Positions 23,588-64,000 of a stretch of 64,000 nt of DNA are shown here, piece by piece. The notes under the pieces were generated by a model. It did no database searches. It saw nothing but the letters and a program-made list of their open reading frames with translations, and had not been told where the DNA came from. The stretch lies in contig NC_037602.1 of the NCBI RefSeq assembly GCF_003073045.1, positions 9,038,464-9,102,463 of the forward strand, given 5' to 3'. A program made the position numbers and the translations under genes. This stretch comes from Pomacea canaliculata. Lineage: Eukaryota; Mollusca; Gastropoda; Architaenioglossa; Ampullariidae. The first letter of the stretch is position 1, and every line of letters begins with the position of its first letter.

Positions 23588-26500
23588 TTAGAGCTTTGAC
23601 TGTAGAAATGTTGGCAACACTTGAGCAGTCAATGGGCTGTATGTCTGTGCTGAGGAATTATGGTAGTATAGAGGGTCAGTGACTTTTGTTAAATCATAAC
23701 CTTCTTGCACAAGGTTGAATTTTTGTTGTTTGAAGGTGCTTGTCAGCACTGCCTGGCTTAAAACACGCAAGAACAGAGGGCGAGCATAGCTTGCCAGGTC
23801 ATCTTCACATAGCTGATACAGCTGCTTCAGCTGTGCCTCTGTCATTTTATTACCTTCTTTAAGAGTGATTGCAGCCATTCCTGCACGCCCATCATGACCT
23901 GAAAAATGTTCAAAAGTCAATTGACCTATTAGCTTGAAAGTAATGAAAATCACTGCTACAGGAAAAAAAAACATGTAAAAGAAGGAATATCTGACAAACG
24001 AAGAAGACAGCTCTTTTCTTTTTGTAACTGCAGTTGTCTATTGGATTAAATAATAAAACTTACAACTGTTATCAGATCATACCTGGTACTTGAACACCAT
24101 ACACATTAGCATCACTGATGAAAGGAAGTAAAGAAAGAACATTTGCCACCTCAGTTGTTGATACATTTTCCCCTTTCCACCTGCAAATTTAGATATTTAT
24201 GCTAAATACTTAGTTTTCATTTGTTTACTCAACAAATGTGCTCAAATTATTTGGTGCTTTATTCTATGCCTCACCTTATGGATCTCGTAATATCTCTGTG
24301 CACCATATTATGCATATCTAAACACATATCACACAAATACATGCAATTTTTTTAATCCATAAAAAACAGGGGGTTGCGCAAACCCCCAGTAAAAACTGTT
24401 CGGGGTTTTGAGATACCCAGTTAAAATTATTTGGGGATTATTATAGATGAGTCATAAAAAAAGTACATCATATATTCTAATAGTATTGTGATCTTCATCA
24501 CTGTCAAGAAACTGCTTTAATCATGTGACATTCTTTATAAAAACTGTCACATTTGATAGACATTGATCGGCTTTAATATTTTTTGTTACATAATAATATA
24601 AACAATTATATATAACACAAAGATATAAGTGATTAGGCCTCTGACTTATAATTCTTTTACATTTTCCTATCTTTTTGCAAATTACCTTTATGTTAGCTGG
24701 ACCTTTCCTACACAATTTATGCATATTTGTACAGGACAACAAACCCTTAAATGGAAACAATATTTTGTGTGTTTTACGATTTATTGAATTCATGTCATTA
24801 CAGTTGTGTCAAAAACAAATAAGTTATTCCTTTTTCCTGATCCATATTATGTCTTACCTGAATGTGTCCCCGATTCTGTCATGAAAATACAAGAAGTAAT
24901 CCTTGTCCAAGGAAAACACATCCCCATAGTTAAAATATAAATCACCATCAACAAAAGCATTTCTAACAAGCTTCTTTTCATTGGCTTCTTCGGATGCCTT
25001 GTATACATGTACAGTTTCCTTTGTTTGGCGTATCAAGTCTGGAACTTTGCTCAAAAACAGACCAGGTTCACCTGCCATCATCAAAGATTTGGGGATGGGG
25101 GAGTGGAGAAGACATTAAATTTTTAAAGCAGTCTCAACACATTACTTGACAACTGTTAGTTCTATTAACGTGCTGAACACTGATTGCAAATATTGTTGTG
25201 ATGTGGTTACTCCAAAGGTCCACATTAATTTAGCAGCTGTCAAAACTACACAGTAAATCACCTAGGTCAAGTGACTTTAATTTACCAGGTGTTCACTTTT
25301 ATGGCAAAAATGGTTCTTTAAAAAAGTGAACAGTCAAAGTGAGATAAAGGAAATTGTTACATACTTAAAAATGCCTGCTGACTCGTCAAGCCTAAACATT
25401 TATATCTAGTAAATGAATTATGGCAAACCAGAATGAATTATTTTTTTCTGCTCCCTTTACATACTATAAACTTCTAAGTCATATCTTTGATTCTACAGCC
25501 AAAAACAAAATTGCTAACAAAGTGACCCCTAAAATCTGTTCATGGAATACAATACCATCAAAATAAAAATAAATACTGTTGGTGTTAACTCTCTGAAGAT
25601 TCCATTTTTAAAATAAGCATGCCACAGCAGATGCTGCTTGACAATGCTAAGATTACTGTGCATCTTTGAAGAAAGAAAGACAAATATATGCACCTGTGCA
25701 TGAAGTACAACTACATGTAATGCAGAAATAAATCATACTTTATCTTTCTGTTAAAAGTCTCTCTCTGGAGCAGAACTGCTATTACCTTCAGTTTGTAAGA
25801 TACTGACCCCAGGAATGTGTATGTTCTCTTGAAATCATACCCAGGTAAGCGGAAAAAATACAACAATGGTATATCCTTATGAAGAACAGCTTTAAAAAAA
25901 AAAATCAGTTGCAAATAAAAATCAGTAAAAAAGAAACATTCTCTCCACGAAAAAGGCAGATTTCAAGTACTCACCTATTTTGACTTTGATGCAACGCCCA
26001 TTTTTGTCTCTGAGTGGCTGAGCTGTGGTGTAATCAAACTTGACCAATGCTTTAACATCTGGATCAATTTTGCTCTGAAAAAAAAAAAAATCATAAATGC
26101 AGGAAGTGCTACGTATACCTAAAAGGATCAGCTGCACTCATGAGTGAAACAAGCACTTATATATTTTATCACACCAAATACAGCATGTTATGTCTTCTTT
26201 AATTCACCAGACAACCCGACCATAGAAGAAGGGATCTGGAGGAAGGCTCTGCCAACCACCCTGACTGACACACCATGTAACTAGATAGAACTAGGCTCTA
26301 ACTTGCTGAGCAGTCAAAATTGGGCTGACAAGGTGCAACATGGCAGAATGAGCAGATAGTTTACAGAGGTAGAACGCCCTGAATGTGGAGTCCAAGTGCA
26401 ACCCCACAGAGGTCATGATTATCTGCCAAAGTGACATTCAGCTGAACAGATAGGCTCACCGTAATTGCCAGAATCTCATGCACCCACACTCTGAACCTGC

Positions 26501-29500
26501 AGGAAGTAATTCCTTGAAGTCAGAGTGAGACGTTGCAGTTTGCATATGTGTAGCCTCAAAAATCAAAATAAAGAGACTGGTGAACCCACATGGAATCTTT
26601 TTTTAAAAATAGTAGTCTGAGGGAAGCACTGGGCTTAAGGGGTAAAGCACTCTAGTTATCAGGACTGCTTGGGTCAAGAATTCATTTAGTTAAATAACAG
26701 TTGTAGCCCTTAAAGTCCTATGGTGGGGTCGCCTGGTAAAGTTAAAGAAGAAACACTGTTGTTGTCTTTGGCTGCTTAGGTAAAGAGAGCTGTTCATTTT
26801 GATTGAAGACCTGAATAGCTTGTGAGTCCCCAGCTCCCACTAATAAAATTGATCAGATTAATATCAACTATACATCATTACTCATAATATGGCCGCATTT
26901 CAAGACTAGTGTATGTAATTCAAGGTTTTTTAAGTTATATTATTTTAAGTCATACTACAGTTTTGAAGAAAATGAGCCAGAAATGCAGGCACATTTTGTA
27001 AAACATCCAAATGTTAAGAAAATGTTGTCAACTGACCAATAGTGGAGACAGCCGTCCAATGGCCCCAGGTCTATTGGCAATGTTGATGAGCATTGTCATA
27101 CCTTCTGTTGCACCAAAGAATTCACAGATTAAAGGAATTTTGAATCGCTCCTGCACTGCCTTGAAAATATCCTTGCGAAGACCATTCCCCATCGCTGCCC
27201 TAATATTGTGTACACCATCTAGTTCATGCTGAACAAGAAACACAAACAGTACTTTAACCTGGTTTGCTAGTAGTTGTAAAATTTCTGTAAACTTTGGTGT
27301 AATCCTGCAAATGGGTTTAAATTAGTTAAAAAGTAAAATCAAAGCAAACAATCTACTCAACTGCTGTTGAATATAGCTCTAGAGTATAATGTTAACTAAT
27401 TCCTTATTATATGACTTCAAAAACATGTTAATGATTGTATAATTAAACATAAAAAATGTAATTCAACATTCTAATCAATGGAGCAAATGTAAGAAATGAG
27501 AATGCGATAAACTAAAACACACAAGGTATATCAGTCTTATATATCAGATTAAGAAGATAATCAAATACTAACTGGTGGCTGTGCTAACACGTATCTGAAG
27601 ATCTCTCCAATGTACTGAATAACGGTAGCACCATATTTCCGGCAGTCAGACCAGAAATTTCTAGCAGAGAACTTTCCAACCAAAATCATAGTAGCCCCTG
27701 TGGAGAAAATCTGGCTTTCACTGTTTTATAATTAAACATACATATACAGATCGTAATCAAAATAGCCACATACTAATCAGAGGATGATAACCTAAAAACC
27801 AAATGTTTCTTTGCAGCTGTAAGTCTGTAGGTATAACTTTTCTTTCTTGATTTCTGATAATTATGTTGCATAATCAAATGAGCATGTACAGACAGGAGCA
27901 CATGCATATACAAGGACCTGTTTTTCACACTGACAGAAGCTTAAGCAATTTTTTCCTTATCTTTTGCCCTATCAATATCTGAAACTCAGTGGTCAGAAAC
28001 AAAATATTTAACAAGGATAAAGAATAACAAGCACAAAAATACATAATGACACAAATGTTCATGCTAAGTCATATTCACATTCACATCTTTCTTAATCCTT
28101 CATGTGCACATAGTTAACATACAACCGTACCTCTCTCTATAACACCAAACAGACCGATACCACCACCGGAACTATGGTACAAAGGAAGGCATGTGTACAC
28201 AACATCTTCTGCTGAAAGTTTGACTGCTTGCAATACAAGAGATATTCCAGTTCCCTTGCCTTGACTGATAAATGCTGGCTTTGGAAGACCTGTAAAAACA
28301 AGAATAATTACAAATGATAAATTGGCTCCAAATTTCCTATGATCACAACAATTCTTTCTACATAAATATCTTGGTCGCTGATCATCACTGTTAAACTTAA
28401 GCTCTTTCTAACATTTAATGTTCTCTGAAATCTGTTTGCTGTTACTTTAGGCTTTCTCCTCATCCTCTTGACTCAAAAATGCAAATATTAAGGTTTTATC
28501 CAGGATGAATAAAGGCAGGTTCAGGTGACTGTAAGCATGTTTTTTAGAGTGTATGGGTGCCATTTTTCATTTTACATATCTATGATATTTTTGAAGGAAA
28601 TCAAGAAGTTTAAAAAATGCAGGATAGGACTTCCAAAAATTAAACAAAAAATCTTTTGATTTACTTTAGAATCATTTATTCTCTTTATTTCAAATTTCTG
28701 AAAATCTATCTAGAAGATTATTAAAAAAAACCATTGTTAAAACTGCATGCCCTTCTCATGATGGTACAGAACTGAGAAACAAAAAAAAAAAATCTTGTTT
28801 TATTTTGATACAGGTATTAAAAATTAATCCATTCATTTTCCTTTTATTTTCAAGTCCCCTATTGTAAGATTTATAATTAAGCAATATAATTTCTGTACAG
28901 ATAATGATATATAGGAGAAAGACGATTTACATAATTACAGCAACACTAGTACCAAACATTCCTGATGAATGCAAAAACATTAGTTACCAAAAAAGTGTCA
29001 ATTAAGGAGAAGACCTGATAAAGGTATGATATCTTACATTTTTGTCCTTAAAAACTGTTTCTCATCATTTTAAAGTATTAATGTCCAAATTTTGTTTTCC
29101 ATACTTGAAACAGAGAAGTTTTATCATGCTCCATAAAAAGAACTATGGAAGAAAGTATAAAGACTAGCTTTTTTCCACAAAATCAAACACATATAAACAT
29201 ATTAAAGGTGTCTCTCTGACTGAAAGCTCAGTTTAGTTGTCAACAAATTTTGCTTATCTTGGAATTTTAGTAAAATATGGTGTGGAATTTCAAGTGCTAA
29301 GGATAATCACATAAACAAAAACTCTTGCTATTGTGCATTCTCCTTTATTACTTTCCTGAATAGTCTATACACAATTGGCAATACTTAAAAGTAACAAATT
29401 CTTTAAAAATGTATTTGTAACTTAAGTTTCTGGTTATAAAAATATCTTGCAAAGGACACAGTAAGCTTAGTTTCATTCATCTTTGATAAATCTTCCGCAC

Positions 29501-31399
29501 AAAAATGATAAACAGTATTTCTTGAGAAAAATTAATTAAGAAAGTGTGTATGTTCATTTTTTTTAATACTTCTATATTTTAAAAGATACCTGTTGTTCCT
29601 GATGTATAGATGTAGCAAAGAATTGACTCCATGGTCATGTCTTTTCGCACACTTCGATCAATCCTCACAGGTAAGGACTGTGCCATTAGAGAGTCCAAGC
29701 CATTCATTCCCTGTGGCACATCACTATCTGTACATCCCTGGATGTAAATGGGAAGTCCCTCCAGGTCATCTAAAATATCACTGACAGCATGAAGCAAATC
29801 AAGCCCTAAGAAACAGAAAAGTGTGCAAGTATCAGTCCATACACTGACTGTCAAACAGAGTCATGGGGCTTCAGTTAAAATGCTCACTTGCTCAATGTTA
29901 TTATTTTACTAAATGTAAAGAGTCTTACAAACCCAATCAACCTAGACACAAGAATAGAAAAGAGTTATTGAGATGGAAAAGCAAAAGACAAGAAACAAAC
30001 AAAAGAAATTAAAAAAAAAAAAAAACAAAAAAAAAAAAACAACTTATATATTACAAAACTCTTTACCATGTCCCACAATGATAGCTTTGGGATCACATGC
30101 CAGAATGGAATGTGACAATGGCTTCGTGCGTAAGTTGAAGTTGATAAATGCCACCGAGATCCCCAGTTTCTGCAACCCTGTTTAATGAGAAAATATCTAT
30201 AAACATTCTCTTTGACTGCATTAAATGTACTTACTGCATTTAAATGGCTTTTTCGGCGAAGTCATATTTTTGTGTGGATTACAGCAAAGGGCATACTATT
30301 GTCTAACTTTGCCTGTGGCACATCATCGTCTGGACCAGCTTGTTTGAAAAAACCCTCATTTGCAGAGAGTACAAAGCACCAACTGACTTAACTTTTCAAG
30401 TTGTTTTGATCTAAGTTAACTCCTCAATTTTTATTTTTAGATCCTGAAATAAAAATACAATAGTGATAAAATGAACAAGTTGTTCATAAAAACAACTGTA
30501 TCTTCCTCACAAACTCACCCAAAAATGTCCATATAAAAGCTGGCTCATTGTGGATCATCATGGCCACCGTGTCACCAAAGCCAAGTCCAAGACATCGTAC
30601 TGCATTGGCCACACGGTTGGCCTGGAGCTCCATAAACTCATAAGTATACACAGAGTCCTCAAAAATAAGCATTGCCTTCTTGGGCTGCTTGTCTGCATGG
30701 GTCTCAAACAAGTCAATCAAGAAGCTATTCATGACTTCTTCGCGTATTTTCATCAAATATTTCCCCAGCTGAAACAACAGAAAACTTTCTTATATTTAAA
30801 TGTATTTGTAAATATCTGTGGGAGAGGTTGGTGACAGGTAGGCATAACAAGTATTTGCTTGGCACAGCAAAAGCCTCAGTCATTATTAGACAAAGATTTC
30901 CTACCTGTGAAAAGGTTTATGAATAAAAGGCCCAGACAGGACCTGGCTGGGGCATGTATCATAGTAGCAGCATGTTAGTACCGTTAGCAAACACATTTAC
31001 TTACACTACACAGACAAAATAAAGTCTTGAAATAAAATGCAACACCTTACACCTTGCAAAAACATTTTTAAATCAATAGTTTTTGCTAAATGATTTTGAA
31101 GATGGACCAATCCCTCACAAAATACAATTCCTCAGCTTACAAAAAATGTTTTCCATTAATAAGTCTCAACCTTAGGACATTCTGACAAGTGTGGTTTAGA
31201 AAAGCACATACCTCAACACCCCAATTCTTTTATGGTTCAAACTGAGTTTAAATGTATTACCTGCATTAATTAATGTATTAGTTACCTTCATAAGCTGAAT
31301 ATCATACTTGATCCATGGGAATGTTGTCTGCCAAGCAACTACTCCCAGACCTGCAGCACCTGCAGTTCCTATCAGCACCTTGTCCAGCATTCCTGGCAT
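23588..31399 (-). CDS. SLC27A2-like: Very-long-chain acyl-CoA synthetase / fatty acid transport protein, copy 1
   Basis: Intact gene, 629 codons (SLC27A2 about 620). Coding exons in transcript order: 31399-31286, 30768-30519, 30177-30067, 29805-29590, 28289-28131, 27697-27573, 27228-27037, 26074-25975, 25071-24858, 24180-24083 and 23898-23588 (TAA). The ATG exon begins at 31415, after an untranslated exon ending at 33355. The enzyme ligates CoA to long and very long fatty acids using ATP and drives their uptake, at ER, peroxisome or plasma membrane. Seen: hydrophobic N-terminus (about 7-28); AMP-binding P-loop [12 protein letters not shown] (223-234); [11 protein letters not shown] (263-273); [19 protein letters not shown] (339-345); FFGATEG (362-368); FATP signature [19 protein letters not shown] (487-505); C-terminal [26 protein letters not shown] matches SLC27A2 better than SLC27A1/4. 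Inverted relative to copies 2-4. Confidence 0.93.
24367..24440. repeat. Small palindromic GC block in copy 1 intron
   Basis: A near-perfect hairpin GGGGGTTGCGCAAACCCCC (24369-24387) is followed by CGGGGTTTTGAGATACCCAG, another G/C-run pair. It stands out in the AT-rich intron between coding exons 9 and 10 and resembles a fragment of a foldback element. No second copy was seen. Confidence 0.35.
26199..26770 (+). repeat. GC-richer insertion with tRNA-derived SINE head
   Basis: Lies in the copy 1 intron between coding exons 7 and 8. The part 26622-26770 looks tRNA-like: GGGCTTAAGGGGTAAAGCAC as an A-box region and GGGTCAAGAATTC as a B-box. A body follows (AACAGTTGTAG), part of which recurs near 50800-50840. 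The part before 26575 is GC-richer than the intron but not recognised. Confidence 0.45.
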
Positions 31400-31415
31400 C
31401 TTAGCTCAGGACCTT

Positions 31416-34320: not shown

Positions 34321-34321
34321 A

Positions 34322-35798: not shown

Positions 35799-35813
35799 AA
35801 AGTCAGAGCGAAG

Positions 35814-38800
35814 ATGCCAGGAATGCTAGACAAGGTGTTGATAGGAACAGCAAGTGCTGCAGGTGTGGGAGTAGTTGCCTGGCAGACAAAATTTCCTTGG
35901 ATCAAGTATGATATTCAGCTTATAAAGGTAATTACTTGATTAATTAATACAGGTTAATATGAATTTATCTTTTCATTCCACATTGAACCACAAAAGAATT
36001 GGATGTTGGAAGTATATGGGCTTTCTAAAGCACAACTTCGAGTCTTAACTCATGACCTCTAATTCTTATTTCATACTATAGTATGCCAGATGTTGATGTG
36101 TTAGCATATTGACATTCATGCCTCAATCAGGTCCCTTCTAAGCCTTCTGTACTAAAAGTTTTACACAAGACAAATTTACTGTCATATAATATATGTTCTC
36201 ACAAGCACAGGCAGTTTATGTTCTCCCCTTATCAATCTCTCTGTCTCACACACACACACAGACAGAGCAGACATGCATAACCACATATCCAACATCAAGA
36301 TGGCTAAGCAATCAAGATGGTTTGTTATTGTTTCAGCTTGGGCAGCGTTTGAATAAAATGCGTCAAGAAGTCTTGAATAGCTTCTTGATTGACAAGTTTG
36401 AGTCCCAGGCAGACAAGCAGCCAAAGAAGGCAATGCTCATTTTTGAGGACTCTGTGTATACTTACGAGTTTATTGAGCTCCAATCCAACCGTGTGGCCAA
36501 TGCAGTGCGATGTCTTGGACTCGGCTTTGGGGACACAGTCGCCATGATGATCCACAATGAGCCAGCTTTTGTCTGGACATTTTTGGGTAAGTTCATAAGA
36601 ACAGCAAATAATAATAATAAATCAGCACATTTGCAAAGCACACTTACAAAGTGGGGATAAATATGTTTCACATACAGGTAATGAGCACACACCTTTTTTT
36701 AGGGTAGGCATCACATGCACACTGTTCATGCACATATAACAGGTTAGATGAGGTTTGCTCTCCCAATTTCACCACAAGAACCAAACTCAACACTTTCATG
36801 GGTTCTAAGTTCTTTTTACTCTAACGCATACATGCACATAGCATGCATATAAAAATCCCTGCACTTTATACAACACACACATATAGAATAGATATGTTGG
36901 AAGTGAAGACTGTTCATATTGCTTTGAAATAGAATGGATTGTTAAAATTTAGACAGCAAGATAACTGGAATAAATAAAGAGAATACAAGACATAGTGAAA
37001 TGCACTTTCAGTTTAACAGTCTTAGATTTCTGGCCAGTCACCAACTTAACTTTCTGCTTTGTGTGTCTCTTTGCTTTTAGTCTAATTTATATCTTATGGG
37101 TAGTTAAGTGCCACTCAAAGGGAAAGAAAACCAGATTTACTTTTTGTAATATTAGAATGTACATTGCCATACCTGCATATTTAAATGATAGCATTTGTAG
37201 CTAAGCTAAAATATTCTTGTTAAGTGTTCAGAAAGTATAATTAATGCAATAGAAAATACATTTTTGTCCTCCCCGTTGAACAGGATTGCAGAAACTGGGG
37301 ATCTCGGTGGCATTCATCAACTTCAATCTACGCGCAAAACTCTTGGTACATTCCATATTAGCATCGGATCCCAAAGCTATCTTCATTGGACCTGGTAAGG
37401 ATGATAAAAATTGAGGCCTTTTTGTCTTCTTTTTATTTATTGTTTACTGGGTTTCGCTTCTCAGAGTCATTTGCCTCAAGTTCTGGAGTTTACTATTATT
37501 TTTATCAGACCTTCAAAAAAAATATCATTACATTTACTTTAGGTAAACCCATGGATAATATCCAGTAATATATTGCCATATTTTATTTTATATTTATACA
37601 TGTTATATCTTTAAGTTGTTTGTTGAATTAGGAGTTTTGAGACACTAGTTTTGTTAGCTGAGTGATTTTACTACCATCATCCATGTATTTAGTTAATACA
37701 GTGATAACACTCACTTGCCCAGCAGACTGCCAGCAGTGGACTGGGTTAATGGGGCAAATTAAGGCAAAAGATTAAATGGCATAGGTTTAGGCTAGGAGTG
37801 TAAAAATTTTAACAGCACAAAACTAAAATGAGAAATTGTTTTTTTGTATGGACAGATGAACACATTGCAATGCCTTCTGTCTCTTAGGGTTTGACCTGCT
37901 TCATGCAGTCAGTGATGTACTGGATGACATACAGGGTCTCCCCATTTACATCCAGGGGTGTACTGGACATGAGGTGCCACTGGGAATGAATGATTTTGGC
38001 TATCTTATGGGACAGTCTTTACCTGTGAGGACCGATCGAAGTGTGAGAAAAGACATGACCATGGAGTCAATTCTTTGCTATATCTATACGTCAGGAACAA
38101 CAGGTATCTTTAAAAAAAAAATGCTAATTTATGTTGTTACAATTCACTTTTCACCTTCCTCCCTTAGGAATGTTTGATTTTGATTTTGATACAGATAAAA
38201 AACAAAGATAAACCCAGGATATCCTTTGTGTACTGTCCATGTAACCAGGACCAAAGGCTTATAGATTTAAATGTATAATTCTTTAACTTTTAGTTATAAT
38301 CAATTTTTTTTCACAAAGTATTTTAAAAAATGAAATAGTAAACAGGACTGTTTCTGTGATTCTATTAGAAATACAAGTATTCAGCCAGGGTTATTTTGTT
38401 TTACATGATTTTATTATTTTTTCCTACATATCTAGAAAATGTAAAAGACTTCTTTAAATTAATTGTAATTCTCAAAAAGAATATAAAAAGAAGACTGTTA
38501 CAATACAGAGTTAAGCAGACTTTTTTCCTACTTTGTATCTTTGGCATAGAAAAATAGAAATATGACAATTTAACCAAGTTTTGTATAAAGGTTTTGTTTA
38601 AATAGATTTTTAAGTAGCTAAAATAAATAAAAGAGCTGTGGATGATCTTTAATAATTCAAAGGATACTTGAATGTTCCACTTCCACCCGGACCAGTATTT
38701 CGCGTGCTTTGAGCGAGCGCAGACCATGGGGAATTGATAGCGATTCTTCATGGTGTCTCCACATTTTTTTCATGCTTTTTTTTCCCCTTCTAGTTTTTTC

Positions 38801-46922: not shown

Positions 46923-49900
46923 ATGCCAGGAACTCTGAACAAGGTGCTGCTAGGAGCAGGTGCCGCGGGTGTGGGAGTAGCCGCCTGGCAGACAACATTC
47001 CCATGGATCAAGTATGATGTTCAGATGATGAAGGTAATTATTACATTAATTTATAGAGGTATTATTAACTTATCTACACCCCTTCATACATCCCTTCATC
47101 CATTCCTTTACGTTCTACTTGTGTACCTCATATTTATGTTGTTCAGTGTGCCTTCATAACCTTACTGTCGATTGCCTCTTATCTTTCATTTATTAATATT
47201 GGTCTGCGCAGAGAGTGCGACCTAGCTTGGTCATGATGCTGCGCATTATGTTCCTATTATTATTACTACCACTACCACCACTACCACTACCACTACTACT
47301 ACTGAGTGATGAGAATGATTTGTTGTTTCAGTTTCAGCAGCATATGAATAAAATGCGCCAAGAAGCCCTGAGCAGCTTCTTGATTGACAAATTTGAGACC
47401 CATGCAGACAAGCAGCCCAAGAAGGCAATGCTCATTTTTGAGGACTCTGTGTATACTTACGAGTTTATGGAGCTCCAGGCCAACCGTGTGGCCAATGCAG
47501 TGCGATGTCTTGGACTCAGCTTTGGGGACACAGTCGCCATGATGATCCACAATGAGCCAGCTTTTGTCTGGACATTTTTGGGTAAGTTCATGAGAACGGT
47601 GAATAATAATAATAAATCAGCACATTTGTAAAGCACACTTACAAAGTGGGGATAAATATGTTTCACATACAGGTAATGAGCACACACCTTTATTAGTGGA
47701 TACCTTTATACATGAACATAGTATATGGCACCCTCACAAACATGCATGCAAAAGACACAACACATGCTCATGCATAACTGCTCATGCATAACTGCACACA
47801 CACATTGGCGTGGTGGAGGGAACAGAAGTACCAGGAGAAAACCATTGACAGTCAGCCTTGTAGACAGTCACATCGAAAAAGAGGTATTTTAAAGCCAGAG
47901 GAAAAAAGCTCACATTTCAATGACTATTTTGAAATCAAATGAAGCGGAAATTTAGAGAGCTAGATAATTAAAATACATTAAAATTAGTATAAGACATACA
48001 AGTAATGTGAGACATAAAGATTTTGCATGTTTTGTTCAGCAGTCTTGAATTTCTGGATAATCAAGAACTTTTTGCCTTGTATGTCTAGTGTAATTTATAT
48101 CATCTGTGAAGTAACTACCACCTTAAAAGGAAAGAAAGCCAGATGTACATTTTGCAGTATTAAAAGGACATATTTGCATAATTATATGACTGTGCAGAAA
48201 GTGCAACTAATGAAGTAATTGTATATTACAAAAAGAACATGGTCATTATTTTCTTCCTTGAACAGGATTGCAAAAAATAGGAATCTCAGTGGCACTCATC
48301 AACATCAATCTACGCACAAAACCCTTGGTATATTCCATATTAGCATCGGATCCCAAAGCTATCTTCGTGGGACCTGGTAAGGATTGTAAAAATTGAGAGC
48401 CTTTTTTTTTTCTTTCTATTTATTGCTTGGTTTTGGCTCTCAGACTTATTTATCTCAAGATCTAGAGATTACTATTATTGTTATCAGACCTTTTAAAAAC
48501 ACCTCAGTACAAAGATTACATTTACACACTACATTAGCCCATTAGCAACATTTAACAATACATTGCTATATTCCATTGTCATAACCCACTTGCCTAGCAG
48601 CGGTCTTGGTTAATGAGGTTAATGAGAATGTATTAGTGATTAAATGATATATGCTTAGGCTAGAAGCCTAAGAATTCTAACAGCACAAAACTAAAGTGAG
48701 GTTCTATTTTTTTGGATGGACAAATGAACACATTGCAGTACCTTTTGTGTCTTAGGGTTTGACCTGCTTCATGCAGTCAGTGATGTACTGGAGGACCTAC
48801 AGGGTCTCCCCATTTACATCCAGGGGTGTACAGGACATGAGGTGCCACTGGGAATGAATGATTTTGACTTTCTCATGGCACAGTCTTTACCTGTGAGGAC
48901 TGATCGAAGTGTGAGAAAAAACATGAACAAGGAGTCTACTCTCTGTTACATCTACACATCAGGAACAACGGGTATCTTAAAAAAAAAGAAAATAGAAAAT
49001 TAGTTTTTAATATAATATTCAAGACAAAAATTCAAGAAAATAACCAAAAGCTGCTCCTGTGATCTCTCATGGACACTTGAGCTTTACTTGAATTTCTTTT
49101 TATAATTTTCAAAACAGAAGCTAAAATAATGAGACTGATGTGAATTGAGTCAAGGGATATTATTATTAAACTTGTTGAATCCAGTGATGCAATGGCATGC
49201 ATCCAGATTCATTCTTACAGATATGGACCTGTGAATGCATGTTTCAGCTTGAATAAAACCATATTTCCACTGGTGTCTAGTAGAAGGGGCTTAAATCTAA
49301 TTTATCAATGATGTTGAAGGATATCATAAAATGATGATTGTGGTCACAGATTTATAACTGCATTTATTACTTGTAATATTCTTTTTTTATACCTATGCGC
49401 TCATATTTGCAGGTCTTCCAAAGCCGGTATTTGTCAGTCAGGGCAAGGGTTCTGGATTGTCAATTGGTTTGCAAGGAGTCACAATGTCAGCAGACGATGT
49501 TGTGTACACATGCCTTCCTTTGTACCATGCTGCCGGCGGTGGCATTGGTCTGTTTGGTGTTATAGAGAGAGGTACAGTAATGCCTTAAACATGTGCCTGT
49601 GAGAAATGAAAGAAGATGTGAATGTGGTTGTACATGAATATTGCAAGCATGAGGTTAGGTTTGATCTGCATCTTCTGAGTAATAAGTTTTCCCACAGTTA
49701 TGCCTGGAAACATAAATTTAGAGTTGCTTTACATTTTCAAGTGTTAATTAGTAAATGAAAATTGTATCTACAATCACATATGTATGCCTGCATGTGTATA
49801 TTCTACTACATGTTTGTGTATTCACAGGGGCCACAATGATTTTGGCACAAAAGTTCTCTGCAAGACATTTCTGGCCTGACTGCCAGAAGCATGGTGCTAC

Positions 49901-52900
49901 AGTTGTTCAGTACATTGGAGAGATCTTAAGATATGTGTTAGCACAGCCTCCGGTTAGAATTTAGTTTTTAATATTTGCTATATAACACGTACTTACACTT
50001 TATTAACTTTACCAGGTGTCCTGACTATTACAAGGTTGTTAATAAACCAAATCAATGCTCTGGACTGTGGGCGTCTCACTGAACGGCCACTCTTGACCAA
50101 CTGCATAATGTTTTATTAAAAGAGCTCAGGAAATTTTTGGTCTGGTTCATTGGCTCTGCCACACACACACAGTTAGTTGTTGTCACCTCTTTAACCTGCC
50201 CGCCTTCTGGTTGATTTATTGACTTCTTAGTTGTTTACCTGAGTTGCGCTCTCGCTTCAGTACACAGAGGGTTTTGATTGTTACCATCATCACAGGGCTT
50301 CTACTAAGGCTAAATTCTTTGTCGTCCCAGGGACCCCTTCTTCAGATTTTTAAGGGGTCCCTGTTCTTAGCCCAAATTTGAAGGGGACCCCATTGACGAA
50401 AATTGAAGGGGTCCTCCGAACTTTTAATGCGTACTGTACGCAATTTTTTGCGTATGCAGAAGCCCTAAATGATCTAGAGCAGACCTGGTCAAAGGCCGTC
50501 CCGCGGGCCGCATCCGGCCCGCCTCCTGTCTCTGACCGATCCGCCCGCTGGCCAGCCCGCCAGTATATATACTATATATGCAGTATTGGGTAAAACTGAG
50601 TTAACTATATTAGTCCGGACCTCTAAACCCATCTCAATTTCTCATGCGGCCCCTGGGGAAAATCAATTGCCTACCCCTGATCTAGAGGGAGTGTCTTGAG
50701 ACTAGCTATGAGCCCAGGGTCTCTCACTTTTTCTACGGAGCCTTATATAGCAGTTGATGGTGGATGGACATAGCAGAATCCCTGACTTCACTGACAAGGG
50801 CAGTAATTCGTTTGGTTAAAGAACAGTTGTAGTCATAATAGTCAAATCATTTAGTATCAAAGAAAGAAACTTTACAAGAAAAATTTATTTATGGCAATGT
50901 CCTTGCTCACTTTGCGCATCTAATAAGGAATTTTCTTTCGTTAATAATTTTGATCCTTTTTCTCTTTCTTTGTCTAGAATGAACTGGACTGTGTACACAA
51001 TGTTAGGGCAGCAATAGGAAATGGTCTTTGCAAAGACGTTTTCACGGCATTCCAGGAGAGATTCAGAATTCCTTTTGTTTGCGAATTGTATGGTGCGACA
51101 GAAGGTGTGGGACTTATCTTCAACATTGCCAACAAACCGGGGGCCATTGGACGGCTGTCCCCACTACTGGTTAGTTTACAAAGATTTTCTGTGCATTTTG
51201 GTGCCGCAGAAAAGGTCTTCTCACTTCTACTTCATTTTCTTCCATAATGATTATCAAACAAACTACACACTCATTCTAAGATGAGACAAGAATTTATGTG
51301 AGCAGTCTTAATGGCCCTGGTTAATAATTTCATCGTCCACTACTAGGGGACAAACAATTACTGTTCTCGGACCAGGTGACAAATTTTGAGAGACGCATAT
51401 ATACAGTGTGCGTGCATGCAGTTGTATTCGCCACGAGTCAACTGACCTTTCACCTCACTCCTTGATGTTTGACTGTGACCCATGTCCCTGTTGTTTATTT
51501 TGGTATCGACTGCAACGATCAGGGGAAGGAACATCTCACGAAATACACCAACGCTGTGAAGAAGCTATTGAAGGGTTTTTTTTCCGCCTGGATGCTGCAG
51601 CCTCCAACAATTGTGAAAGATGTCACCTTCGACACAAGCAGGCGGAACTCTGGGAAAAAGACGTGTAGCACGTGCTGCGCCAGCCCAGCATGGACATACC
51701 GGTGTACGTCATCCGGAAAGAGGGTGCTACTTCGTAACATGCTGTTACCCTGGGTGGTAGATGAGGCAGATCGACAAGAAGGTGCCACAGATCACTCACA
51801 CGGTCGGTGGCAAAGTGGACTGTGCTGTTCGCAAAGAAATCATGATGGCATAGCAATAAACTACCTGGATCGCTAGGTGTTGTGTTGTCGAGAGGAGTGG
51901 GAGGCTGTACAACCACCCTCACCTCTCTTTTTACAAGTGTACGCTCTAAGTGCTTCGGATTGAGGTTGTTACTGTAGGTAGAGTACACAGTGTGCTACTT
52001 ATCTATGTCGTTTTTGACCCTAGTTTGACTTCTTCACACCACCTACTCTGTTGTATGAAGCTCCTTGAGCTTGCCCATTGGGGAGGGATATTTTGATCAC
52101 TATAAAAGCGAACTTTTATTTCTATTTATTTGCTATTCTTCGTTGTATTTATCACACTGAAACTACGGCTACCCGGCCTCCCCTCTAAATAATGATTTTT
52201 CTATGTCAGAACAAAACTGATCCAACCCCAAAAGAGTTGGTCAAGTTTGATTATGCAACAGCTCAACCAATCAGAGATAAAAATGGACATTGCATCAAAG
52301 TCAAAATTGGTGAGTACTCAATTTCTGTTTGTTAGTGAGACAAAGTTCATTTATACTCGCAATTTTTAGCTGTTTGTGGTTTTGTGGGGAGGGGGGGAAG
52401 GTTTTGTTTACTTTTTGGTTGTCATTAAAAGGATGTGACATTGCATTGCATTGTTTTGCTGCCGTCATTACCATTGGACCCTTGCATACCTTGTCCCTGT
52501 AATTAAGGGGGACTATATGGATAGACGCGAAAGCTGACAAGGCTCGCCACTCACACAGGTTTTGGACGATAATGAGCAGATCCTGCACAAGACGACCAGC
52601 CTAGTCTTAAGCCAGTTCTTCCATAACCCACACATGTTCAGTTTTTGTTATTCTCTTTTGTGAAAAACATTGTATTGCACAAAAAGAGTTTAGGGTCACT
52701 TTGATGTAGTGTATCATTACAGTCTCTGACATCGATCATAGTAAAATGGGACTTTACACATAAAATGTAAACGGATTTTTGTTCAAATGAGTTTTGTTAT
52801 CACAAATAAAATATTTTTACATCATAAGAAAATTCACTTTCCTTAAAGAACCATTTCCTACACAGCACTGTTGAGTTATTAAAAGTGTGTAGTTGTCAAC

Positions 52901-54028
52901 ATTAGTAATGTGTTGGAATGACTTATTTGTTTATCCTTTTAAAGTTTGAATATCATTATTTCACATAATGGTCATTGATGTTGGCAGGTGAACCTGGTCT
53001 GTTTTTGAGTAAAATTCCAGATGAGATGCGCCAAGGAAAGGATACTGTAAGAGTATACAAGGCATCAGAAGAAGCCAATGAAAAAAAGCTTGTTAGGAAT
53101 GCTTTTGCTGATGGTGATTTATATTTTAACTTTGGGGATGTGTTGTACCTAGACAAGGACTACTTCTTGTACTTCCACGACAGAATCGGTGACACATTCA
53201 GGTAAGACAGATATATTTAGTATGTAAAAAGGAATAGCTTACATACTTGGGTGTATGTCTGTGTCATGAGGGGCATGAAGGTAGAAGTGAAGTTCATGAG
53301 ATGATAAGTGATAAGATGAAAATGACATTATGCAAAAAGTTGAGTTAACCGGTCAATCTAGTAGCCTTTTAAATATATACTCAACCAAATACATATATTT
53401 AGCACAGCTTTTATTTAATGAATGAAAGGAAATTGAATATTTATGAGCCATATTTACATTTTCAGATGGAAAGGGGAAAACGTATCCACAACTGAGGTGT
53501 CAAATGTTCTTTCTTTGCTTTCTTTCATCGGTGATGCTAATGTGTATGGTGTTCAAGTACCAGGTATCTTCTGAATACATTGTTTTTTCCAATAAGTAGG
53601 AAAGAGTTTCCAGGTCTAAAATTCTAGGGTTTTTTTCTTTTCACTGTATTTTCTTCTTTCTTTCTAACAGTAATTTTCTGACAGCAACAAAGAATTTGAT
53701 ATTTGAATATTTTTCAGGTCATGATGGGCGTGCAGGAATGGCTGCAATCACTCTCAAAGAAGGCAATAAAATAACAGAGGCACAGCTGAAGCAGCTGTAC
53801 CAGCTGTGTGAAGATGACCTGGCAAGCTATGCTCGCCCCTTATTCATTCGTATTTTAAGCCAGTCAGTGCTGTCAGTCACCTTCAAACATCAGAAATACG
53901 ACCTTGTGCAAGAAGGTTATGACCTAACAAAGGTCACTGACCCTCTATACTACCATAATTCCTCAGCACAGACATACAGCCCACTGACTGCTCAAGTGTT
54001 GTCTACATTTCTACAGTCACGGCTCTGA
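46923..54028 (+). CDS. SLC27A2-like: Very-long-chain acyl-CoA synthetase / fatty acid transport protein, copy 3
   Basis: Intact, 628 codons (one residue shorter in the N-terminal hydrophobic segment). Exons: 46923-47033, 47332-47581, 48266-48376, 48756-48971, 49413-49571, 49828-49952, 50978-51169, 52210-52309, 52988-53201, 53466-53563 and 53718-54028 (TGA). The ATG exon begins at 46908. Keeps the P-loop [20 protein letters not shown], the FATP signature and a TFKHQK C-terminus. Differences: GNGLCKD replaces GNGLRKD; the AMP-binding motif is ELYGATEG; exon 4 reads [13 protein letters not shown]; exon 6 reads [17 protein letters not shown]. The N-terminus is [16 protein letters not shown]. The intron before exon 8 carries two small DNA transposons (50293-50467, 50480-50679); the next one carries an unclassified retroelement-like block. 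Confidence 0.92.
47263..47304 (+). repeat. Trinucleotide microsatellite (TAT/ACC/ACT)n
   Basis: Imperfect run of TAT, ACC and ACT triplets just upstream of the exon 3 acceptor (47331) of copy 3. It may affect spacing to the branch point. Copies 1, 2 and 4 lack it at this place. Confidence 0.8.
47601..47690 (-). repeat. LINE-tail-like insertion in copy 3 intron
   Basis: Near-identical counterpart of 36606-36692: (AAT)n then CAGCACATTTGTAAAGCACA, and the same downstream bases through AATGAGCACACACC, after which copies 2 and 3 diverge. Confidence 0.6.
50293..50467. mobile_element. Palindrome-rich TIR element, copy B (about 175 bp)
   Basis: Second clear copy of the element at 1005-1179, in the same orientation. 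Ends CAGGGCTTC (50293-50301) and GAAGCCCT plus a mutated last base (50459-50467). Internal hairpin GCGTACTGTACGC at 50429-50441 is unchanged. No clear target duplication at this copy. In the copy 3 intron before exon 8. Confidence 0.75.
50480..50679. mobile_element. hAT-type MITE with perfect 8-bp target duplication
   Basis: A 200-bp element with imperfect inverted ends, CAGACCTGGTCAAAGGCCG at the left and CAATTGCCTACCCCTG at the right, and GC-rich flanks inside (GGGCCGCATCCGGCCCGCC). The octamer ATCTAGAG occurs exactly at 50472-50479 and 50680-50687. Eight-base duplications and CAG..CTG ends are hAT hallmarks. No coding capacity; it must have been mobilised in trans. Confidence 0.88.
51380..52150 (+). 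mobile_element. Unclassified retroelement-like block in copy 3 intron
   Basis: GC-richer block between exons 8 and 9 of copy 3. It contains overlapping open frames on + (51469-51876, starting [15 protein letters not shown]) and - strands without a domain I recognise. It ends with GGGGAGGGATATTTTGATCACTATAAAAGC, split here as GGGGAGGGATATT and CACTATAAAAGC. The equivalent place in copy 4 (62930-63030) has GGGGAGGGATATGGCGC and a TATATAAGC, so the tail predates the copy 3/4 duplication. Type not determined. Confidence 0.45.
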
Positions 54029-57259: not shown

Positions 57260-60200
57260 ATGCCAGGAATGCTGGACAAGGTGGTGATAGGAGCAGCAGG
57301 TGCTGCAGGTGTGGGAGTAGTTGCCTGGCAGACAACATTCCCATGGATCAAGTATGATATTCAGCTCATGAAGGTAATTATTAAATTAATTTATAGAGGT
57401 ATTATTAAATTATCTTGAACATATTAAGTCCTTTTATGAAATCATAGAACAATTTTTATTATAGACTTATGGCCTCTTAGCACTCAGTTGTATGTTTCTT
57501 CTGATTTCAAAATGTAAAATATATTCTTCCTAAATCCATAAAGATACAAAACTGTGTTGTTTTTATTTTAAAGAAAATTGTGCTAAGGTCAGTACTAGCA
57601 ATAATTTTCTAGTCCCACAGTGAATATCCCATCACTATTTTAGAGATATTAGCCTGTAAGCATCATCATGCAAATAAATCACTATTGTCGACAGATAGGA
57701 TGCCAGCTGTCCAATTGGCTGCAGCGTTAGTAGTATAAACATATCCATTAACATTCCTCATGTCAGAGTTTTGGTCTCTTTTTGCATGGAAATGTTTGCA
57801 TGATTGTATCTTGAGTTCCAAATAGTTTGTGTGTGTGTGAGAAATACGGGGAGAGGAACATTTATTCAGATTTTGTACTTCAGTACAACTGTAATGAGTG
57901 CAGCTTACTGATTTGAAAAAAATAATCATTCTTTTAGTCTATTAACTTTAATTTCAACTTCTGGTTTTGATTTTAGTGTTATTGTACAAGTCTGATAGTG
58001 CTAATGTTGACATGTTAGTGTATTAGTATGCATGCACCAAACAGGTCACTTCTAAGTCTTCGGCTCAAAAAAGTTGTACAGGTCAAATATATCCCGTCAT
58101 TTTAAAAAGGCTGAAGATCTTTTCTTGCAGACATATGCAGTTCTCTTACCCCTCTCCAGTACTCGGACAGAAAAACCAAATATGTCCACATATTTGTGTG
58201 CAAACATTTGAGCAGTCAAGATGGTTTCTTGTTGTTTCAGTTAGGGAAGCGTATGAATAAAATGCGCCAGGAATCCATGAAAAGCTTCTTGATTGACAAA
58301 TTTGAGACCCATGCAGACAAGCAGCCCAAGAAGGCAATGCTCATTTTTGAGGACTCTGTGTATACTTATGAGTTTATGGAGCTCCAGGCCAACCGTGTGG
58401 CCAATGCAGTACGATGTCTTGGACTCGGCTTTGGTGACACAGTCGCCATGATGATCCACAATGAGCCAGCTTTTATATGGACATTTTTGGGTAAGTTCAC
58501 AAGAAAAGTAAGAAATAATACACGCCTTTATAGTGTATAGGCCTCAAGTGTACCTTCATACACAAACATGTACACAACAACCACACATGAATGAATACAC
58601 ACCACACAATATACAGGATACATATGCATACATGTACACACGGTCATGCATGATTGCACACACACATACACACACCTCATGGAGGAAACTGAAGTACCAG
58701 AAGAAAACCATGCGAAGTCAGCCTTGTAAACAGGTGTCACATCCAGAAAGAGACAAAGGGGGAAAAACAAATCCCTGTTTCTTGATTACTTTGAAGTAAA
58801 ATTAAGCTAAAAATTCGAAAAAAAGGAAGTTTAATTAAGAGAAAGATAATTGGAATACATAAAAAGTAGTATAAGACATTCTATGATGCATACAAATTTT
58901 GCATGACCTTTTCAACAGTCTTCGACTTCTGGATAATCAAGAACTTTCTGCTTTGTGTGTCTAGAGTAATTTATATCATCTGCCACCTTAAAAGGAAAGA
59001 AAACCAAATTAACTTTTTACAGCATTAGTGTATACTGCCATATTTGTATAATTATATGACTGTGCAGATACCTATGCTAATATATTCATGGTAAGAATTC
59101 ATAAAGTGCAATTAATACAATAATTGTGTATTATAAAAAGAACATGTTTGTCACTATTTTTTCCCCAATTGAACAGGAATGCAGAAGCTTGGGATCTCAG
59201 TGGCATTCATCAACTTCAATCTAAGCACAAAACCCTTGATACATTCCATATTAGCATCGGATCCCAAAGCTTTCTTTGTTGGACATGGTAAGGATTGTTG
59301 AAACTGAGGGCCTTTTCTGCTTCTTTTTATTTATTACCTGGTTTTGCTTCTTAGACTTAATTGGCTCAAGTTCTATTATTGTTATCAGACCTTTTACAAA
59401 CCCCTCACTACATACATTACATTTATACTTACTACATTTACTTCAGGGGTTAGATGGGACAACATTCAACAATGTATTGCATTATCCAACTTGTCTAGCA
59501 GCAGAATGAGTTAGTAAGGTTAATGAGAGCGTATTAGTGATTAAATGGTATTTGCTTAGGCTAGCACTGTAAAAATTAGGATAGCACAAAACTAAAATGA
59601 GAAGTTATCTGTTCACTGTGTGGCAAATAAACACATTGCAATGCCTTTTTGTCTCTTAGGGTTTGACCTGCTTCATGCAGTCAGTGATGTACTGGATGAC
59701 CTACAGGGTCTCCCCATTTACATCCAGGGGTGTACTGGACATGAGGTGCCACTGGGAATGAATGATTTTGATTCTCTTATGGCACAGTCTTTACCTGTGA
59801 GGACTGATCGAAGTGTGAGAAAAAACTTGAACAAGGAGTCTATTCTTTGCTACATCTACACGTCAGGAACAACGGGTATCTTAAAAAAGAAACTAGAGAA
59901 TAGGGAATCTTACTTTGTTACAACTCACTTTTCAGGTTTCTCTTTTAGAAATGTTTGATTTGGATGTCAGTTTGTAATATATGTGCCTGTACATGCAAGA
60001 TCATTACTTATGACGGTGAGCGGTTGTACAGTGGATAAGTATGACTTTGACCTAAGACTTGAACATTCAGCACTTCATTACAATGTTTAAACAGGCACAT
60101 CCACAAGACTTTTTCTTTCCTCTTTTATTGATCTTAGTCAATATTTACCACAATATATAATCCACCGTCTAGATATATAATCCACAGTCCCGGAAGAGGA

Positions 60201-63200
60201 AGCTATACCTGCACCAACTTAATCTGCACAAACATATCTGTATGTCTCACACAATGTCTTCTCAAGACAGACCATCGCCAGTTGGAAAACATGGTCAGTT
60301 TTTTTTTCAGAGGCCAAGCTGCCTCATCCTGAATTTTTTGTTTCCCTGGTCCTTCTTTGATGCTTGACCAAGAATAAGAGAAAGGCAGCTGTGAACGCAT
60401 GTTTCAGCCTGAATACAACCATATTTGCATTGATGTCTTGAAGACACAGAAAATCTGTAAAAATAACAACTGTAGTTATTGACCACTATGACCAGAGAAA
60501 ACTGAAAGGTGATAGTGAATAAAATCAAATTTATCATTTATCAATGATGGTGACATAACAACATGATGATTGTGATCACAGCCTTACAACTGCATTATTA
60601 TTTGTAATATTCTTTTTTTAAATATGGATACTCACTTATATTTGTAGGTCTTCCAAAGCCGGTATATATCCGTCATAGCAAGAGCTTTGGTGTATCAGTT
60701 ATGATGCAAGCAGTCAACTTTTCAACAGAAGATATTTTGTACACATGCCTTCCTTTGTACCATGGTGCCGGTGGTGCCATTGGTCTGTTTGGTGTTATAG
60801 AGAGAGGTACGGTGAAGCCTGAAATGTGTGCCTGTGAGAAATGAAGGAAGTTGTGAATATGGTTTGGCATGAATATTTGTTAGTATGTGTGCACATTTGG
60901 TCATGCACCTTCTGAGTTTTCCTAGTTATACCTGAAAACATAAATATACAGCTGCAGAGAAAACGGGCTTTATATTTTCAAATGTTAATTAGTCAATGGC
61001 GTTCTTGCAATCATATATATGCCTGCATGTGTATATTGATGTGTAAATATGTTTCTGTTTCCACAGGGGCCACAATGATTTTGGCACAAAAGTTCTCTTC
61101 AAGGCATTTCTGGCCTGACTGCCGGAAGCATGGTGCTACAGTGATTCAGTACATTGGAGAGATCTTAAGATATGTGTTAACACAGCCTCCGGTTAGAGTT
61201 TAATTTTTTTTAATTACCCATTTAATACATACACTTTATCAGCTTTACCATATGTCCTATTAGAAGGTTGTTAATAAACCAAATCACTGCCTGCAATGTG
61301 GGGCTAGGTAATTAGTGGCCATGGCCACTGCGGTCCTCACTGAACCCAGGTACACCCACTCTTGACCGCTGCGTGAGGTTTTATTAAAAGAGGTCAGCAA
61401 ATTTTTGGTTTGGTTTATTGGCAATGCAACAGGCACGTTTAGTTGCCATCACATTTTTTTAGTCTGTCCGCCTTCTGGTGCTTTTGATAAGAAAGTTGAG
61501 TAATTCTTCTATTTTCTTTGATTTAATATTTTTTTAGTCTCGGCATGTGAACAGTAAACTTGTAATACAGAATTTCTAAACAGTACTGTTATCAAAATTG
61601 ATATTTAGTGTTTAGCAGCAGCTGATCAGCTTAATTGTTTACCTAATATTAACTTTCTCACAAAATTAGATTATTATTTTCAAAGATAATGCTGTGTGAA
61701 TTAGTTTATTAAATTATGTACTTTTTATGTATTTTGTCTAGAATGAACTGGACTGTGTGCACAATGTTAGGGCAGCAATAGGAAATGGTCTTTGCAAGGA
61801 CATTTTCATGGCATTCCAGGAGCGATTCAAAATTCCATTTGTGTGTGAATTCTTTGGAGCGACAGAAGGTGTGAAACTTATCTACAACATCGCCAACAAA
61901 CCTGGGGCCGTTGGACGACTGTCCCCACTATTGGTCAGTTTACAAAGATTTTCTGTGTAGTTTGATGATTAGAAAGTGTTCACATTTATTTGGAGTTATC
62001 TGTTGAGACATACAGCACACTTTGTCTACATTGAACATGATCTTTCATTCCTTCATTTGTTCTTTGACGGGTACAAGCGACGCATGGATGGATACGCCAG
62101 CTGACAAGGTCCGCCTCTGTTTTTGGACTAAGTGATGACTTATGCAGCCACTTCATGCTTCAGTTATTTGGACCAACTTCTTGGCATCCCGCCGAGCCTT
62201 AATTATTAGTTATGACAACAAGAACATGGGCGTGAGGACGTGCACGTGGCTAATGTGACAATCAACACAGTAGTCATACCAGCAAGCATGATACTGCAGC
62301 CAGTCAACAAGTTTCAGTGTGAGGTGCAATGGGTATGACTAAATCGGCACCAAGCTGTGTTGAAGCACTGACATTTTCTCGCGGTCTTTGATTGTGGAAC
62401 AGAAGTCACGCGCCAGAAACATTTTTAGCAGCCATCCAGATAATTTTGCAACGGGCAAAACTAGTGTTGGGGGATTTCACACATGTGAAACACAAAATAA
62501 ATCCAACAGATGACACGACATTTAAAGAACGTACAGGCAAAGCCCTTGTTACATATCAATATCTCGTAGAAGAGAAGTTTCCACATACATCTGGTATCTC
62601 TTAATGACTTAAAATTCATTGTGTTTTCCGGCACATTTGATGAACAGATGGAAAGAGTGGGGAGAAACGGTACAAGTGCACACTGTCGAGTCACGAACTT
62701 GTATTACTCGACTGCGGGCAGACGATTTTTTTTCCAGTTAACTACTAAAACGAGGCACGAGACTACAAAGCTTCCGGTTTAGTCACATTCTTTGTTTAGG
62801 CTCGCCGAGACTAATATCAGATCACTTCGCAAGAGGCTATGAGTTGGTCTTGGCAGACAGACAGCAGTCCACCTATACACGTCCATGGTGGAGTCCACAG
62901 TCTGCTGCACATGCACCTACTTCAAGTTGTCACCTAATTTTGACTTCACACCTCCTGCTGTGATTTTTGAAGTGGCTTGAGCTGGCCCATAGGGGAGGGA
63001 TATGGCGCTATATAAGCTAACACTTATTTCTAGTTGTTTGTTGGTTTGTTTTTTTGTAGTATTTATCGCTTACTGCATTTAATGTTTTTTATGTCAGAGT
63101 AAAATTGAGCCATTCCCCAATGTGTTGGTCAAGTTTGATTATGCCACAGCTCAACCAATCAGAGATAAAAATGGACATTGCATTAAAGTCAAAATTGGTG

Positions 63201-64000
63201 AGTACTCAATCCCTGTTTGTTAATGTGGAAAACTTCATTTTTTTTTATAAATCAAATCGTGACATAGTGTGAATAGTTTTTTGAAACTACAAAAGCAACC
63301 AGCATTTATATATAGCAAGATAAGTGAATAGAAATGTCCAAAGCTGCTGCAGAAATCTGTTCTTATTGACTGTATAGCTGATGAACAAACAAGGTAGTCA
63401 TATTCCCACAACATATCAATGTTACCTATAATAAAACCACACATAAAAAAGATGTGGGGATGTGAGCATTTGTTTGTGCAGAATCAAGGATATAATTGAT
63501 GTTTTGTTGTGGGAGTAGCAGAGGAACAAAAATTGATGTGTAATTATTGTAATAATTCATTTTGAGATTTACCAATGTTTGAACAACTTGCAGGCTTGAA
63601 GGTTGTGGTCTTCACTTTTTTTTGTGTGAAATCATGTAGACATTCTTCTTGCCACTCTTATAGTTGATTTATTTTCCTTAAAGAACCATTTTCTACAAAA
63701 AGGTGAAGACCTGATGAATTGTTAGAAGTGTGCAGTTGTCAGCATTAGTAATGTGTTGGAATGACTTATCTGGTTTTCCTTTTACAGTTTGAATATCATT
63801 ATTTTACATAATGGTCATTGATGTTGGCAGGCGAACCTGGTCTGCTTTTGAGTAAAATTCCAGATGAGATGCGCCAAGGAAAGGATACTGTAAGATTATA
63901 CAAAGCATCAGATGAAGCCAATGAAAAAAAGCTTGTTAGGAATGCTTTTGCTGATGGTGATTTATATTTTAACTTTGGGGATGTGTTATACCTAGACAAG
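57260..64000 (+). CDS. SLC27A2-like: Very-long-chain acyl-CoA synthetase / fatty acid transport protein, copy 4 (cut by window end)
   Basis: No defects in the part seen. Exons: 57260-57373, 58241-58490, 59177-59287, 59660-59875, 60648-60806, 61067-61191, 61742-61933, 63098-63197 and 63831 onward. The exon at 63831 should end near 64043, so its last 43 bases and the final two exons (with the [11 protein letters not shown] and C-terminal motifs) are outside the window. The ATG exon begins at 57245. P-loop YIYTSGTTG is intact. Copy-specific: GNGLCKD as in copy 3; ELFG-type site here is EFFGATEG; exon 4 begins [11 protein letters not shown] and ends FFVGHG; exon 6 reads YIRHSKSFGVSVMMQ and YHGAGGAIG. 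Fourth member of the cluster; nothing in view suggests a pseudogene. Confidence 0.9.
61980..63050 (+). mobile_element. Ty3/gypsy-like pol fragment and retroelement tail in copy 4 intron
   Basis: Between exons 8 and 9 of copy 4. At about 62460-62530 the + frame reads LGDFTHVKHKINPTDDT then TFKERTGKALVTYQ, resembling the short region before the RT domain of Ty3/gypsy polyproteins (VKHxIxxTDDTPFKER). The rest is disrupted. Near 62990 a GGGGAGGGATATGGCGC plus TATATAAGC tail matches the end of the block in copy 3 (about 52085-52110). Confidence 0.5.

Follow-up and report, generated by a model that had tools for sequence, protein, structure and literature searches.

Four SLC27/ACSVL-type genes clustered in Pomacea canaliculata, with amino acid change concentrated in predicted acyl-pocket segments

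Four adjoining genes with one exon plan

The stretch of Pomacea canaliculata DNA that we analysed (64 kb, called the window below) contains four adjoining SLC27/ACSVL-type genes, A to D. When the window was compared with itself, matching blocks linked one region on the - strand with three on the + strand: gene A is inverted, and genes B, C, and D stand in tandem. Gene B was read by eye as 11 coding exons, and these exons were then mapped onto the other copies (Table 1). A, B, and C are complete, with one terminal stop each, and D stays in frame as far as the window reaches, through eight full exons and then 170 nt of exon 9. The 42 exons (the last exon of D is cut) are separated by 38 visible introns, all of them GT-AG. 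Exon lengths are identical across the copies, with the sole exception of exon 1 of C, which is 3 bp shorter. A and B have a head-to-head arrangement with 4,414 bases between them. Start codons are spaced 11,109 bases apart between B and C and 10,337 bases apart between C and D. An earlier note on this DNA had described four genes with the same exon plan, one on the - strand and three in tandem on the + strand, of which three were complete with uninterrupted frames and the fourth was intact as far as visible. Our models bear this out and refine the exon count to 11 coding exons.

Table 1. Genes, variable segments, and C-terminal tripeptides of the cluster, in positions of the window
Feature	Position	Strand	Remarks
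Gene A	23588..31399	-	Inverted copy; 11 coding exons, 629 aa; start 31399, stop at 23588; frame open; 10/10 introns GT-AG
Gene A, exons 1-6	31286-31399, 30519-30768, 30067-30177, 29590-29805, 28131-28289, 27573-27697	-	
Gene A, exons 7-11	27037-27228, 25975-26074, 24858-25071, 24083-24180, 23588-23898	-	
Gene B	35814..42979	+	11 coding exons, 629 aa
Gene B, exons 1-6	35814-35927, 36337-36586, 37284-37394, 37888-38103, 39475-39633, 39911-40035	+	
Gene B, exons 7-11	40311-40502, 41355-41454, 41924-42137, 42408-42505, 42669-42979	+	
Gene C	46923..54028	+	11 coding exons, 628 aa
Gene C, exons 1-6	46923-47033, 47332-47581, 48266-48376, 48756-48971, 49413-49571, 49828-49952	+	
Gene C, exons 7-11	50978-51169, 52210-52309, 52988-53201, 53466-53563, 53718-54028	+	
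Gene D	57260..64000	+	Cut by window end; 479 codons without stop; 8/8 visible introns GT-AG
Gene D, exons 1-5	57260-57373, 58241-58490, 59177-59287, 59660-59875, 60648-60806	+	
Gene D, exons 6-9	61067-61191, 61742-61933, 63098-63197, 63831-64000	+	Exon 9 cut
Variable segment, codons 236-261, exon 5 of A	28198..28275	-	Luciferase R218 aligns inside (codon 245)
Variable segment, codons 236-261, exon 5 of B	39489..39566	+	
Variable segment, codons 236-261, exon 5 of C	49427..49504	+	
Variable segment, codons 236-261, exon 5 of D	60662..60739	+	Most changed copy; keeps outgroup His at codon 240
Second variable segment, codons 369-373, exon 7 of A	27085..27099	-	MTMLI; luciferase S347 faces codon 370
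Second variable segment, codons 369-373 of B	40440..40454	+	VTITV
Second variable segment, codons 369-373 of C	51107..51121	+	VGLIF
Second variable segment, codons 369-373 of D	61871..61885	+	VKLIY
C-terminal SKL and stop of A	23588..23599	-	Putative PTS1; read directly
C-terminal SRL and stop of B	42968..42979	+	Putative PTS1; read directly
C-terminal SRL and stop of C	54017..54028	+	Putative PTS1; read directly

The Pfam scan was run on protein A, to which B, C, and D are 80-85% identical (also the range of all pairwise comparisons between copies). It found both domains that define the ANL adenylate-forming superfamily, AMP-binding and AMP-binding_C (PF00501, 161.1 bits, cut-off 29.9; PF13193, 33.7 bits, cut-off 24.5). 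Among the best 60 of 134 matches to PDB sequences, the nearest solved structure was human FATP2/SLC27A2 (E 4e-139, residues 52-621), the only SLC27 protein there. Two FATP2 chains led with 467.8 and 465.1 bits, and the next molecule, a luciferase, scored 87 bits. Alongside this full-length best match to a FATP, A to C carry the FATP block (16 protein letters), which we take to be a signature of the SLC27/ACSVL family; D is cut before it. NCBIfam model NF006134 aligned with residues 37-622 of A at 598.8 bits, below its equivalog cut-off of 625. Because of the Pfam domains, the lead of FATP2 over luciferase, and the NF006134 score below cut-off, we assign A to D to the SLC27/ACSVL enzymes. The name "SLC27A2-like" in the earlier note holds in the sense that FATP2 is the nearest relative among solved structures, and it means only that. 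Three bacterial plasmid relatives (L001-L003) aligned end to end at 33.7-36.2% identity. A scan of genome contigs with A1 gave 115 pattern matches and 0 relatives. Among the literature matches listed, none described such a cluster as an invertebrate SLC27 expansion, which leaves room for one in print.

The P-loop and GATEG are kept in the copies, and a block of 11 protein letters and the TFK lysine are kept in A to C. The core adenylation motifs announced by the earlier note were found (30 protein letters and the TFK lysine, both in A to C). One of the two FATP2 PDB chains has Ala in place of the TFK Lys, which suggests that the depositors treated this Lys as catalytic. A His and an Arg lie shortly past the P-loop lysine in all four outgroups (FATP2 and the three bacterial relatives). 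At the His position (codon 240), only D has His and the other three copies have Gln; the Arg position is Lys in all four copies. The F/Y difference in FNFGD/FNYGD is not the oddity that it seems, since FATP2 has S there and the outgroups S or T. Because the motifs are kept, we also rejected the idea that the copies diverged by altering their catalytic residues.

When the window was searched by tblastn with each of the four proteins, neither another clear copy nor a spare exon came up (27 hits outside modelled exons, best E 0.18), and these weak hits included no mutually exclusive alternative copy of exon 5. A 19-codon stretch with one stop (1415-1471) is similar to the last part of exon 2 and matches all four proteins weakly (E 0.18-1.0); it may be what is left of a fifth copy, or it may be chance. 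A 174-base repeat (1005-1178 and 50293-50466, 92.5% identical), the second copy of which is inside intron 6 of C, is probably the remnant of a mobile element. Two open frames at 2598-3858, read by eye, look like fragments of a zinc-finger protein of the C2H2 type whose tail is acidic and rich in lysine; they gave no Pfam match at the limits used. Intron 7 of C has overlapping open frames in a locally G+C-richer part (51390-51994; GC 0.45 over 50001-52000), where the three frames tried had no Pfam match. Pfam gave nothing at or above cut-off for 13 other frames of the window (one, near 2.6 kb, was scanned twice with slightly different limits), and Rfam at its gathering threshold gave 0 matches in the window.

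Duplication history and constraint

The copies have diverged considerably, with dS of 0.161-0.394 between them, and whole-gene dN/dS is 0.260-0.456. When the loci of B, C, and D were aligned and compared in 200-column windows, coding stretches were mostly 0.75-0.97 identical, and non-coding stretches fell to 0.42-0.86. The dS, dN/dS, and lower non-coding identity together argue that A to D are long-separated paralogues under constraint. The local expansion of an acyl-CoA synthetase proposed by the earlier note is supported, as an expansion of the SLC27/ACSVL type. Tandem enzyme families and gene clusters of such a kind are common. The A-D cluster is therefore of a known kind and, as a gene cluster in itself, ordinary.

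Chance similarity among the four was rejected by the self-comparison, the exon mapping, and the domain and structure matches. It is extremely improbable that the copies are an assembly artefact, either haplotypes or mis-joined copies of fewer loci. Allelic divergence as high as dS 0.16-0.39 would be extraordinary, the aligned introns of B, C, and D differ in length as well as in sequence, and one copy is inverted; we found no point in favour of an artefact, and the divergence between copies led us to reject it. Decay of some copies into pseudogenes is very unlikely too. D can be read only to 64000, and neither AATAAA nor ATTAAA occurs within 1500 bases past the stop of C. However, the 42 visible exons contain no stop or frameshift, every visible intron has kept its GT-AG ends, and gene-wide dN/dS is well below 1.

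An unrooted codon tree grouped the copies as AB|CD, favoured by more than 47 log units. A protein tree with four outgroups gave A,(B,(C,D)), with support of 98.8/87 for C+D and 71.9/67 for B+C+D. Its root is uncertain: the AU test rejected none of five placements (p 0.11-0.80), the best of which puts A outermost. Duplication probably gave an inverted head-to-head pair first, after which a unit of about 10-11 kb was repeated in tandem. Judging from the alignment, this unit takes in intergenic DNA, since the regions upstream of C (45381-46261) and D (56187-57053) are alike, with 77.6% identity over about 900 aligned columns. B and C share a 375-base tract (36325-36699 and 47320-47694) that runs over exon 2 and some 110 bases into intron 2 and is 93.3% identical, well above its flanks; local gene conversion is its likely source. 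Synonymous divergence between A and B is 0.05 and 0.14 in exons 10 and 11 (A 24083-24180 and 23588-23898; B 42408-42505 and 42669-42979), much below that of exons 3-8 (0.21-0.79), so gene conversion at this 3' end is possible.

Amino acid change and the acyl pocket

We scanned every 26-codon window over the 478 columns common to A to D for clusters of amino acid change and tested them by permutation. The peak was at codons 236-261, where 21 of 26 codons vary among the four copies (8.1 expected; 1/20000 permutations). Counted by residue types, the same segment gave 32 against 9.7 expected (0/20000), and C and D differ there at 18 of 26 codons (3.8 expected; 0/20000). With D left out, the variable-codon count peaked at 33-58 (440/20000) and residue types at 233-258 (274/20000). 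B against C also peaked at 233-258 (557/20000), and A against B showed no clustering (peak 37-62, 5697/20000). Because the A-B-C counts peak elsewhere and A and B are unclustered, the clustering depends mostly on D. The segment has no indel among the copies, and it is poorly conserved in the outgroups, save one His and one Arg. Outside it, the densest five codons are 369-373 (7/5000 permutations), a second cluster that is weaker with 8-codon windows (maximum reached in 283/5000).

Pocket positions were taken from an alignment to luciferase 3qya. Residues 252, 320, and 381 of the 3qya chain face codons 245, 308, and 370. With an offset of 34, obtained by comparing where the matches to 3qya and 1ba3 lie, and with the luciferase motifs as a guide, we take these residues to be R218, L286, and S347. 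Codon 245 (equivalent to R218) is G/L/G/G in A/B/C/D, codon 370 (S347) is T/T/G/K, and codon 308 (L286), outside the variable segments, is an invariant Thr. In Photinus luciferase, all three residues line the substrate site and affect specificity, according to PMC6122825. By alignment, then, the variable segments hold two of three positions reported to line that site. According to PMC3098103, the position equivalent to R218 belongs to the tunnel that takes up the fatty acid and is tied to chain length, with Asn in long-chain and His in medium-chain enzymes. Trp234 is reported to be the gate of the Thermus enzyme; going by where the 1ult match ends, it should face codon 273, which is G/S/G/G in A/B/C/D. 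By alignment, both variable segments correspond to acyl-pocket segments in relatives.

A codon model with one scale and one omega per region gave omega 0.973 for exon 5 against 0.334 for the rest of the gene (LRT 11.26, p 0.0008; p ~0.009 after correction for 11 exons). The rise is confined to exon 5, since the other ten exons had p 0.15 or more (exon 11 LRT 0.0). A dN/dS above 1 found no support in exon 5, where omega 1 fits equally (LRT 0.01). The value for codons 236-258, 1.37, was not significantly above 1 (LRT 0.60), nor was any of six pairwise tests on codons 236-261 significant (omega 0.83-2.85, p 0.11-0.77). In a test chosen after seeing the data, with kappa fixed at 2.3, the D branch was given its own omega in exon 5, which came to 2.40 against 0.73 elsewhere. 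The lnL was -4520.42 with this omega free, -4524.68 with one omega, and -4522.59 with omega 1 on D (2 delta lnL 4.34 against 1, post hoc). Gene conversion is unlikely to have caused the exon 5 pattern, because exon 5 has a synonymous scale 0.91 times that of the remaining exons. Diversification is not proven to be adaptive, because dN/dS in the clusters is close to 1 with no significant excess, and relaxed constraint on the variable segments is possible. The earlier note had suggested "diversified lipid or xenobiotic acid handling." Diversification stands at the level of sequence, in pocket segments, but nothing supports xenobiotic acids in particular.

Cellular site, function, and known relatives

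The PTS1 consensus is (S/A/C)(K/R/H)(L/M), and all three complete copies end in such a tripeptide. A to C probably act at the inner side of the peroxisome, where they would activate long acids, for the first time or again, and so supply beta-oxidation or the synthesis of ether lipids. PMC10822792 reports that the synthetase domains of human SLC27A2 and SLC27A4 face the peroxisome lumen. PMC8919083 reports a non-canonical PTS1 for human and zebrafish SLC27A2 (TRL and FRL in zebrafish) and states that a PTS1 has yet to be demonstrated to direct membrane proteins of this kind.

From the gene models, divergence, constraint, clustering, and C-terminal tripeptides, we infer activity, a peroxisomal site, and different substrates: A to D are probably a local SLC27/ACSVL family for the peroxisomal activation of long acids, whose copies diverged in the pocket and prefer different acids. 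Each enzyme would most likely link a long acid to AMP and then to CoA in the peroxisome. The machinery for ATP and CoA appears to be kept, and the segments predicted to line the acyl pocket have diverged. Because the divergence lies there, the copies probably prefer different acids. A stronger version, possible though doubtful, is a peroxisomal array in which selection retuned the acyl pocket copy by copy through exon 5 and the post-GATEG loop; the copies would then be entry enzymes for different unusual long-chain acids, with D most changed.

It is somewhat unlikely that the copies are redundant duplicates that do the same job and were kept for dosage or expression pattern, with codons 236-261 changed through weak constraint. 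An exon 5 dN/dS of 0.97 is the neutral expectation, the poor conservation of this segment extends to FATP2 and the three bacterial relatives, and A and B lack clustering, all of which suit redundancy. However, constraint is evident over the remainder of the gene (0.33), the segment is free of indels, and the densest change outside it falls in another pocket-lining segment; the post hoc D-branch value of 2.40 (2 delta lnL 4.34 against 1) points the same way. Distinctly unlikely is a main role in taking up fatty acids, either at the plasma membrane or at the ER, as the FATP name suggests, with the tripeptides incidental. All four proteins have a hydrophobic N-terminal stretch that might correspond to the membrane-anchoring segment of the FATP family (best 17-mer Kyte-Doolittle mean, a plain hydropathy score, 1.48, 1.48, 1.41, and 1.68 in A, B, C, and D). 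PMC10822792 reports an ER-like signal for human SLC27A2 as well. In the same study, a construct tagged at its C terminus still encountered a peroxisomal partner although the tag masks that end; co-import, about which the study cautions, may explain this. Against uptake, every complete copy ends in a canonical PTS1, and the K/R exchange between copies keeps the signal.

If peroxisomal enzymes with diverged pockets are indeed what the cluster encodes, then A to D are naturally occurring forms of a single peroxisomal acyl-CoA synthetase, with most of their differences in the pocket. Such variants would help to map how SLC27 enzymes select chain length and shape. A to C also bear on whether the SLC27A2-type C-terminal tripeptide is a working PTS1, as three copies with a strong canonical form.

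Among known systems, firefly luciferase and 4-coumarate-CoA ligase, of the ANL superfamily, have their fold family in common with A to D by sequence (75-87 bits) and served for pocket mapping, but they are distant and their substrates differ. The bacterial long-chain-acyl-CoA synthetase of NF006134 (PRK08279) is similar over residues 37-622, yet below the model cut-off; relatives of this type are bacterial and, unlike A to C, lack a peroxisome signal. Human SLC27A2/FATP2/VLACS (PDB 9vzp, 20zn) matches over the full length and shares a block of 15 protein letters, the 20-letter or AATEG region, and the TFK lysine. However, its conserved His after the P-loop lysine is replaced by Gln in A, B, and C, and no similarity was detected over the first ~50 residues. 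The C terminus of human and other vertebrate SLC27A2 is reported to be non-canonical, whereas A to C end in canonical SKL or SRL, and A to D, unlike FATP2, form a tandem cluster.
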